Below, piece by piece: positions 56,636 to 60,450 of a stretch of DNA of 64,000 bases. The notes beneath the pieces were generated by a model. The model did not search any database, had not been told where the DNA came from, and worked only from the letters and a program-made list of their open reading frames with translations. Within the stretch, counting starts at the first letter, position 1; the number at the start of each line of letters is the position of its first letter. The DNA is from Sebaldella termitidis ATCC 33386 (lineage in GTDB: Bacteria; Fusobacteriota; Fusobacteriia; Fusobacteriales; Leptotrichiaceae), in assembly GCF_000024405.1 (NCBI RefSeq), contig NC_013517.1, positions 558,001 to 622,000 on the forward strand, written 5' to 3'. The position numbers and the translations under genes were made by a program.

Positions 56636-56796
56636 AGTTATTCATTCCTTTAAAAATTAAATATTTTTATACCTGCCCCAAGTATAATACAGGAAAATTT
56701 AAAATACAAGAAAAAATTCAGCAATTCAAATTTTATTACTGAATAAAAAATAATAATTTATTTACGAAAGTTATCATAAAAATAATAAATATAAAT

Positions 56797-56825
56797 TTGA
56801 CTAATCGATATATATGGTATATTAT
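56797..56825 (+). promoter_or_regulatory. promoter of the amtB leader
   Basis: TTGACT (56797-56802), 17-bp spacer, TATTAT (56820-56825), giving a leader that begins near 56832. Confidence 0.75.
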
Positions 56826-56858
56826 TTATCTGTAATAATTAGAAAAAGGAGCAATATT

Positions 56859-56933
56859 ATGACTATATATAAAATAAACAAATTTGATAATAATAACAAT
56901 AATAATAATTATACAAGGCTTGGTGTATTTTGA
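56859..56933 (+). CDS. asparagine-rich leader peptide before amtB
   Basis: A 24-residue frame with AAAGGAG 8 bases before the ATG: MTIYKINKFD, then seven Asn codons in a row, then YTRLGVF and TGA. Eight of 24 codons are Asn, six of the run AAT and one AAC. It is followed by two hairpins, the second a terminator, and then by the ammonium transporter gene. This is the layout of amino-acid biosynthetic leader peptides, where ribosome pausing at one codon reports the level of that charged tRNA. Here Asn supply would act on nitrogen uptake. Confidence 0.7.
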   Translation: MTIYKINKFDNNNNNNNYTRLGVF

Positions 56934-56952
56934 GATAAATTATCTTAATAAT

Positions 56953-57026
56953 TACGAGCCATTTTGGATTTTTAACAAATGGCTTGTATCTGAGATCTTC
57001 CTGATATAAGTCAGGAAGATTTTTTA
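56953..57026 (+). terminator. hairpin plus terminator in the amtB leader
   Basis: Hairpin 1: TACGAGCCATTT (56953-56964) with AAATGGCTTGTA (56977-56988). Hairpin 2: ATCTTCCTGA (56995-57004) with TCAGGAAGAT (57011-57020), then T7, a typical terminator. GGCTTGGTGTA at 56917-56927, inside the leader peptide, resembles the 3' arm of hairpin 1 and could compete for its 5' arm. Confidence 0.75.
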
Positions 57027-57078: not shown

Positions 57079-58694
<1,616 letters not shown>

Positions 58695-58727
58695 TATATA
58701 TAAAATTACTTGTAAGGTTAATCTCTG

Positions 58728-58828
58728 AAAAAAGGCTGGTTTTATAAATGCAGGCAGTAAGAGATAATACTTCTAGCGCGGTATTATCTTAAGCTGCCTA
58801 TGGATATAATTTTTATACAGCCTTTTTT
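58728..58828 (+). terminator. large multi-stem terminator after glnK
   Basis: Three nested stems: AAAAAAGGCTG / CAGCCTTTTTT outside, AGGCAG / CTGCCT next, and AGATAATAC / GTATTATCT inside. The outer stem ends in a T run, so it can terminate transcription. The elaborate 100-base structure might also be a stable 3' RNA. Confidence 0.65.
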
Positions 58829-58848: not shown

Positions 58849-60018
58849 TCAGATAAGGTCCTCTCTGATAAAAATCTGTATAGAGCTGCTTTTATTCTGT
58901 AAAAATTCTACAAATATTTCAAAATCTTCATTTTTATAAGTAAAAAAAGAACCGTCCTCAAGGTTTTTAATTTCATTGATTACTTCAAAGGAATAGAGCT
59001 CTTCCAGCGAAGATGTAATATACAGAATGCTGTTGATATATTTATACAGATCATTCTGGAGTGTTACGGAATTTTTATAAACATGATATTTTTCAAAAAA
59101 ACTGATAAATTTGCTTTCCGGCTTTATATTTTTTAAATTAGAGGAATAAAGATCATAAAGCAGTGCCTTTCTCAGATGTGCATCAAAATTCTGGATATTT
59201 TTCAGGCTGTTAATGTAGGAGACATTATTATTAACATAGCTGAGCCCTCTTTTTTCCAGATAATTAAGTATAAGATTATAAACATTTTCATAGTTAATAA
59301 TTTTTGATTTTACAGTATCTATAATTTCCTTTGTCTTTTCAAAAATATTTTCACGATATGTACTTTTAAAAGTAAAATTAATTACTGAGCCGGAATGTGC
59401 CGGTTTTTCATATTTTACCTCAAGATCGGTATATTTATTTATATTTTTCACTATTTTTTTCAAAATATACTTTTCAAAATCATAAATTCTGTTATAGGAA
59501 TCTTCCAGTCCGAATAATTCCTTAAGCTCTGTAACAGTGACAGAAAGTGTGTTTGCCGGAAGAATATTATTTAAATGATTATATAAAATAAGAGAAAGGT
59601 TTTTTTCCATAAAAATAAATTTTTTAAAATTAAAGTGGGAAAAAATATTTTCTTCTGTAAGAAACAATTTCAGCTCTTCGGCAGTAAAAATATATATTTT
59701 TTCTTTCTTTTGAAAATAGGAAGATACAGGTGAAAAGGCTCCGCTGTATATCACAGCGTCTTCTTCCGTAATAGAGTAAAGAACCTTTTTGTCGGTAATT
59801 TTGTGAAGAAAGTCCTGCAGTTTTGAATCAGTATCCAGATTCAGCACCTTTATCAGATCTTTAGAGTCAAGACTTATATATGGTGAAGCAAGATCAAAAT
59901 TAAAAATCAGAAGCTCGAAAAATTCCTTCTCGCTTTTGGAAAAATTCTTATTTAGCTTTATGTTTACAATAAAATTTTTCGATTTTTTTGTTGGGGTAAA
60001 ATTAAATATATCAATCAT
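58849..60018 (-). CDS. Rep_3-type replication initiator protein
   Basis: A 389-residue protein resembling plasmid RepB/RepA initiators with two winged helices. The clearest part is MEKNLSLILYNHLNNILPAN, LSVTVTELKELFGLEDSYNR, IYDFEKYILKKIVKNINKYT, then DLEVKYEK and VINFTFK, the Rep_3 WH1-like signature. The C-terminal half is less conserved. The start at 60018 follows AAAGGAAT; the longer frame lacks a site. In a chromosomal setting it may be a relic of an integrated plasmid or a domesticated regulator. I see no iterons within 400 bp upstream. Confidence 0.72.
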   Translation of the reverse strand: MIDIFNFTPTKKSKNFIVNIKLNKNFSKSEKEFFELLIFNFDLASPYISLDSKDLIKVLNLDTDSKLQDFLHKITDKKVLYSITEEDAVIYSGAFSPVSSYFQKKEKIYIFTAEELKLFLTEENIFSHFNFKKFIFMEKNLSLILYNHLNNILPANTLSVTVTELKELFGLEDSYNRIYDFEKYILKKIVKNINKYTDLEVKYEKPAHSGSVINFTFKSTYRENIFEKTKEIIDTVKSKIINYENVYNLILNYLEKRGLSYVNNNVSYINSLKNIQNFDAHLRKALLYDLYSSNLKNIKPESKFISFFEKYHVYKNSVTLQNDLYKYINSILYITSSLEELYSFEVINEIKNLEDGSFFTYKNEDFEIFVEFLQNKSSSIQIFIREDLI

Positions 60019-60450
60019 TTTTTTTATTCCTTTCAATATCAAAAAACAAAAATTTATTAAAAATAAAAATTTCAAAAGTCAGTGTTTTATATATATTCAG
60101 AATTATAACATAAAAAACGAAAAAAAATAATAGGTAATATTCTCATATAAATAATTATTTTATAATTTATATTTATTTTTAAAATAAGTAAAAATGAGAA
60201 ATTTTATTGTAAAGTGTAAAGTGGATATAAAAAAAATATTGACATAACAAATGCTATTATATATACTAATATAAGATGAATTGATATGCTTTTGAAATAT
60301 AGATAAGAAAAATTAAAACACTTTTATGTTTAATGTTTATTTAAAATGATTGGATTGGAAAATCAGAAAAAATAAAAATTAAGATAATAAAAATTTGTTG
60401 AAAATCAGGGAATTAAAAGTGTTTTATGATAATTTTTAGGAGGAAAATTT
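60019..60450. other. intergenic region with ptsG promoter and long-range inverted repeat
   Basis: 432 bp of AT-rich DNA. It holds the ptsG promoter (60239-60267) and AAAACACTTTTA (60315-60326), whose exact complement TAAAAGTGTTTT lies at 60414-60425 just before the ribosome site. These could pair across the leader and hide or expose the start. No gene is seen. Confidence 0.5.
60239..60267 (+). promoter_or_regulatory. promoter of ptsG
   Basis: TTGACA (60239-60244), 17-bp spacer, TATACT (60262-60267), with a leader of about 175 bases. Confidence 0.75.

Follow-up and report, generated by a model that had tools for sequence, protein, structure and literature searches.

A candidate asparagine-codon attenuator upstream of the amtB-glnK genes of Sebaldella termitidis

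Known leader-peptide attenuators and the amtB leader

In the classical cases, a leader-peptide attenuator controls operons that make the very amino acid it reads. Those of the trp, his, thr, ilv, leu and phe operons of E. coli, and of trp, ilvB and leuS of Actinobacteria, have a Shine-Dalgarno (SD) site and a short ORF carrying a run of regulatory codons; these are followed by alternative helices and by an intrinsic terminator before the first gene, and the position of the ribosome decides the outcome. T-boxes with an Asn specifier read the charging of tRNA-Asn via a terminator and an antiterminator, as the leader described here would; unlike it, a T-box binds the uncharged tRNA directly, without translation. 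Leader-peptide attenuation also acts on an inorganic-ion transporter in the case of the mgtCBR leader of Salmonella, whose signal and RNA are unrelated to the present ones. Those Mg2+ transport genes are preceded by proline-codon leaders (PMC3641672). In bacilli, a His leader peptide that precedes hisZ and hisS* was reported in 2010 as new outside the Proteobacteria and Actinobacteria (PMC2965389).

Analysis of a 64,000-nt window of the genome of Sebaldella termitidis (4,486,650 bases; chromosome, 4,418,842 bases), the type strain of which is a termite-gut anaerobe (PMC3035275), suggested that amtB and glnK are probably the target of a ribosome-mediated transcription attenuator with Asn regulatory codons. 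The locus has the SD site, the short ORF and the codon run of the attenuators listed above; the alternative helices, the intrinsic terminator and the decision by ribosome position were recovered in computed folds. It differs from the trp/his type in its Asn codons, in its target, which is an ammonium transporter and a P-II protein and not the biosynthesis of the sensed amino acid, and in having five segments, the first of which would be left free by a stalled ribosome and masked by a ribosome that finishes the leader. The host phylum, Fusobacteriota, also sets it apart from the amino-acid-operon attenuators listed. With the His leader of bacilli it shares a homocodon-run leader peptide outside the Proteobacteria and Actinobacteria, and it differs from it in amino acid, gene and phylum, a comparison made without a test of sequence relation. 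The switch thus appears to be of a known type for which no earlier description with Asn, or with these target genes, was found: a literature search, mostly without subscription journals, yielded no report of an Asn leader, of amtB attenuation or of such leaders in the phylum Fusobacteriota.

The features of the locus are collected in Table 1, together with their state in a second genome of the same genus, designated G001.

Table 1. Features of the amtB-glnK leader and downstream genes (window coordinates)
Feature	Position	Strand	Remarks
Conserved block before -35 box	56746..56796	+	48/51 bases same in G001
Promoter, sigma-70-type, TTGACT-17-TATTAT	56797..56825	+	10/12 matches; both hexamers same in G001
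SD site of leader ORF, AAAAGGAGC	56844..56852	+	just 5' of ATG; 56845-56852 same in G001
Leader peptide ORF, 24 codons, MTIYKINKFDNNNNNNNYTRLGVF then stop	56859..56933	+	G001 version MTIYKINKFDNNNNNNNYTRLDVL then stop
Seven Asn codons (putative regulatory), AAT AAT AAC AAT AAT AAT AAT	56889..56909	+	0/21 bases changed in G001
Segment A', GGCUUG	56917..56922	+	pairs with B when ribosome-free; same in G001
Small hairpin X across stop codon	56931..56947	+	computed fold; 5-bp hairpin kept in G001
Segment B, 5' arm of hairpin 1, ACGAGCCAUUU	56954..56964	+	2 G001 substitutions keep pairing with A' and C
Segment C, 3' arm of hairpin 1	56976..56990	+	0/15 changed in G001
Intrinsic terminator hairpin, 14 pairs, then T-rich tail TTATTTTT	56992..57023	+	between ORF and amtB
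Segment D, antiterminator 3' arm, GAUAUAAGUCA	57003..57013	+	overlaps top and loop of terminator
amtB, ammonium transporter	57080..58347	+	TIGR00836, 391 bits, above cut-off
glnK, P-II nitrogen regulator	58359..58694	+	P-II models, E 1e-37

An earlier note on this DNA had placed a promoter, an SD site, a frame of 24 codons, seven of them for Asn, two hairpins and a T-run terminator before amtB-glnK, and each of these parts was found there, the promoter lying upstream of the span 56859-57026 that the note covered. The AT-rich block before the -35 box is conserved above the level of the flanking genes, whereas 9 of the 17 bases of the promoter spacer differ in G001; from this pattern the block is a possible activator (regulator) site or UP element.

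The Asn run, six AAT and one AAC, goes beyond what chance would provide. Asn makes up 6.9% of the residues (4450 AAT and 1288 AAC codons), so that the probability of seven consecutive Asn residues at one given position is about 7.5e-9. A search of both strands of the whole 4.49-Mb genome found (AAY)6 in the leader only. Background rates were taken from a 464-kb sample of the genome, in which 1043 ORFs of 8-41 codons are preceded by an SD site. Runs of at least four equal residues were present in 12 of these ORFs; the amtB leader ORF was the only one with a run longer than five, and also the only one combining a run of at least four with a terminator within 160 nt.

Alternative helices and the position of the ribosome

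The antiterminator 5' arm, UGGCUUGUAUC (56980-56990), is contained in segment C and pairs with D in a helix of 11 bp (9 Watson-Crick and 2 G-U). Segment A' lies just past the Asn run, has a sequence that recurs in C and can pair with B; hairpin X, which is absent from the earlier note, is nested inside the A':B hairpin. As C is used either by B:C or by C:D, and D either by C:D or by the terminator, two mutually exclusive states result: A':B with C:D, which is the computed read-through state, and B:C with the terminator. An antiterminator that excludes the terminator is therefore present, as C:D, in the computed structures. The note had suspected an alternative pairing of GGCTTGG; this is the A':B helix, which engages the 5' side of hairpin 1 (56953-56988) and so sets C free. 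It had left unclear how hairpin 1 would act on the terminator: the two compete, since the 3' arm of hairpin 1 supplies the 5' arm of the antiterminator. A further pairing, A:C (AUACAAG with CUUGUAU, 7 bp), is possible in principle and was dismissed, its probability being about 0 at all lengths tested.

The leader folded more stably than all of 200 dinucleotide shuffles (z -4.2). The terminator at 56992-57023 was the sole such site in the region, where shuffled sequences had an average of 0.0 terminator-like sites. Among 3000 random terminators of the same composition, 0.13% acquired an equally strong antiterminator (P >= 0.9). Shuffling the region between the Asn run and B left the switch in place in 5% of 2000 cases; the A':B helix alone, of just 6 bp, is not rare by this measure (5%), and the assignment of A' rests less on statistics than on its position and conservation.

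According to the proposed mechanism, RNA polymerase would start at about 56832 and a ribosome would initiate on the leader ORF. With charged Asn-tRNA in short supply, the ribosome would stall on the Asn codons before reaching A'; A' and B would then pair and leave C free, C:D would form and block the terminator, and amtB-glnK would be transcribed. With plentiful Asn-tRNA the ribosome would reach the stop codon and cover A'; B:C (hairpin 1) would form, leaving D free, and the terminator would form and stop transcription. We infer that the attenuator works in this way in the cell. An untranslated leader is predicted to be ON, unlike those of trp and his.

The likeness to amino-acid attenuators proposed in the note was borne out by the calculations, in which masking of A' shifted the computed ensemble from antiterminator to terminator. 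With the RNA exposed to 57013, P(C:D) was 0.99 when A' was free and 0.2 to 0.01 when A' was masked, hairpin 1 and then the terminator forming instead. For a ribosome with a 30-nt footprint, P(C:D) was 0.80-1.00 as long as the A-site lay within codons 1-16 and 0.05-0.00 when it lay within codons 17-25, with a sharp drop from 0.99 at codon 16 to 0.05 at codon 17; the flip point is the last of the seven Asn codons. When the leading edge was varied from +9 to +16 nt, a variation that took in only the RNA downstream of the ribosome, the flip in the S. termitidis sequence stayed within codons 16-20. With the 30-nt footprint the G001 leader flipped at the identical place; its OFF state was leakier at some lengths, with P(C:D) of about 0.63 when A' was masked. 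In the model, the position of the ribosome, on the regulatory codons or at the stop codon, decides the fold.

At equilibrium with the whole terminator exposed (from 57015 on), the terminator was always the more stable structure, even with A' free, and the ON state was favoured only while the RNA ended at 57011-57014. A terminator that is more stable at equilibrium is usual for attenuators. The ON state would thus depend on kinetics and be reached co-transcriptionally, a route made plausible by path estimates. Conversion of A':B to hairpin 1 faced a barrier of 6.5 kcal/mol for RNA ending at 56990, when C has just emerged, and of 11 kcal/mol for RNA ending at 57000-57006; once C:D had formed, the return to hairpin 1 faced barriers of 10-14 kcal/mol.

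The leader in a second Sebaldella genome and in other bacteria

The leader was found in two Sebaldella genomes among the 96 Fusobacteriales genomes searched and was absent from the other 94. The note had expected the ORF and the Asn run to be kept across the Leptotrichiaceae; they are kept in the single relative that has the leader, and the expectation was borne out only in part. Conservation was assessed on two closely related sequences, those of S. termitidis and G001, which share 84-85% identity in the flanking DNA and about 88% in the leader block. The promoter hexamers, the SD core, the Asn run, A', C and the 5' arm and loop of the terminator were unchanged, while the loop of hairpin 1 had diverged at 4 of 11 positions. 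In the ORF one change was silent and two were replacements, both located behind the Asn run.

All six changed pairs of A':B, B:C and C:D are still paired in G001. Segment D carries two substitutions, both of which keep C:D. One of them, T to C at 57011, converts a G-U pair of the antiterminator into G-C and breaks a pair of the terminator, and is thus evidence, from one pair of sequences, for C:D itself.

In G001 (locus L002 1400-1530, C46) the terminator runs straight into the final ~60 bp of glnK, and no amt gene was found elsewhere in this genome. Judged by its sequence, the G001 leader is an orphan after deletion of amtB-glnK; the deletion may be recent, or may be an assembly fault. The glnK remnant, read as a deletion scar, indicates that the leader was formerly an amtB leader.

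The retention of the leader in G001 without amtB-glnK, together with the great strength of the terminator, could also be taken to mean that the leader is a free-standing gene for a small protein or sRNA, which ends at the terminator, with amtB-glnK transcribed separately. We consider this unlikely. The glnK scar lies directly after the terminator, no promoter-like site was found on the + strand between the terminator and amtB, and an antiterminator would be pointless in such a gene, yet C:D has been kept by pair-preserving changes.

Between glnK and a convergent rep-like gene, positions 58727-58828 form a single-copy long hairpin of ~100 nt (-41.6 kcal/mol), which may act as a terminator in both directions or be a separate RNA. 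It is retained in G001 despite the deletion of amtB-glnK: the apical CUUCUAGCGCGG is identical, and substitutions in the stem compensate each other (GGCAG..CUGCC to GACAG..CUGUC and UAC..GUA to UGC..GCA). The neighboring gene adjoining glnK (58849-60075, - strand), also present in G001, codes for a plasmid-type replication initiator, RepM/RepE-like (E 4e-7), in a chromosomal location.

No convincing poly-Asn or other codon-run leader was found before 80 related AmtB genes (Clostridia and others), and none of the leaders of other Fusobacteriales amt genes had an Asn run. An upstream ORF before amt in Leptotrichia proved to be the tail of polA, and a look for Asn runs elsewhere in the genus turned up an Asn-rich secreted protein of G001, which is unrelated. 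In another Fusobacteriales genus (g17; L174, L176-L178) the amt genes have a terminator hairpin right before the start codon, with a T-run at -24 and without an Asn ORF in the last 70 bases; this hairpin is perhaps another attenuator.

The signal probably read by the leader

A translation-coupled attenuator could respond to a signal other than Asn-tRNA charging, such as a nascent peptide that stalls the ribosome, queuosine modification of tRNA-Asn or a slow-down of translation in general. In the folding model the ON state follows from any stall before codon 17, and AAU accounts for six of the seven codons of the run. Seven codons for one residue just before the flip point suit an amino-acid sensor, and as regards queuosine, AAU is merely the commoner Asn codon here; we regard such signals as a shade less likely even than a free-standing gene.

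Nitrogen-related riboswitches, the glnA RNA and glutamine-II of cyanobacteria, precede such genes in other phyla. By analogy, the leader might be a ligand-binding riboswitch, or a protein-binding RNA, for glutamine or ammonium, with the ORF incidental. This is improbable: no Rfam family, including the amino-acid leaders, the T-box and both glutamine riboswitches, matched the leader even at the relaxed threshold of E <= 5, the RNA consists of short hairpins with no conserved core, and the ORF with its SD site has been kept. AAT repeats are simple sequence and the genome has 33% GC, which would suit an AT-rich microsatellite that came to lie in frame by chance and regulates nothing. This is hardly credible: the run is the sole (AAY)6 of the genome, the parts stand in order, from the SD site and ORF through the Asn codons and three alternative helices to the terminator, and the whole is conserved in G001.

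For an attenuator that reads Asn-tRNA charging, a parallel was found in the same genome. A T-box leader upstream of asnB (L144 554-787; C1, about 428 kb) was matched with E 7e-17, although its 76 bits fall short of the Rfam gathering score. Its specifier, placed by eye on the Rfam alignment, is AAC (Asn), and the specifier region is identical in the congeners G001 and G003. In a 2008 survey the T-box count for the Fusobacteria/Thermotogae genomes included was zero (PMC2494555). The asnB T-box with its AAC specifier indicates that the genus probably already uses the charging of tRNA-Asn as a regulatory signal. In the asnA leader no attenuator was noticed; asnA closely follows another gene.

The note had taken charged Asn-tRNA as a sign of nitrogen supply. 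The genome does contain asnA, which codes for an aspartate-ammonia ligase (TIGR00669), and the T-box asnB, and this part of the suggestion stands on inference from gene content. AsnA makes Asn from ammonium and so ties Asn to it directly, while amtB imports ammonium; the link of Asn to the regulated genes is thus indirect, via AsnA. With an ammonia-dependent asnA and the asnB T-box, a coupling of Asn-tRNA to ammonium makes sense, and the amtB leader may read Asn-tRNA to gauge the ammonium supply. Because Asn is a common residue, such a device would be expected to be less sensitive (Elf and Ehrenberg, PMC1183508). We tentatively raise, as a real possibility, the wider proposal that Sebaldella gauges ammonium by tRNA-Asn charging, the Asn attenuator on amtB-glnK and the asnB T-box forming a translation-based nitrogen circuit that replaces protein sensors or works beside them. 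If so, aminoacyl-tRNA charging would serve as a nitrogen gauge with ammonium uptake and a P-II protein as its output.

Besides asnA, the genome codes for a glutamine-type AsnB, AspRS and GatB. Three PF00152 proteins are present, of AspRS, LysRS and AsnRS size; the third class II synthetase, of 474 aa, reads as a putative AsnRS by length and elimination. The AspRS score passed the bacterial cut-off but did not reach that for the non-discriminating enzyme. An indirect Asn-tRNA route, with AsnRS missing and GatCAB making Asn-tRNA a direct glutamine sensor, was dropped in view of the AsnRS-sized third PF00152 protein and the AspRS scores.
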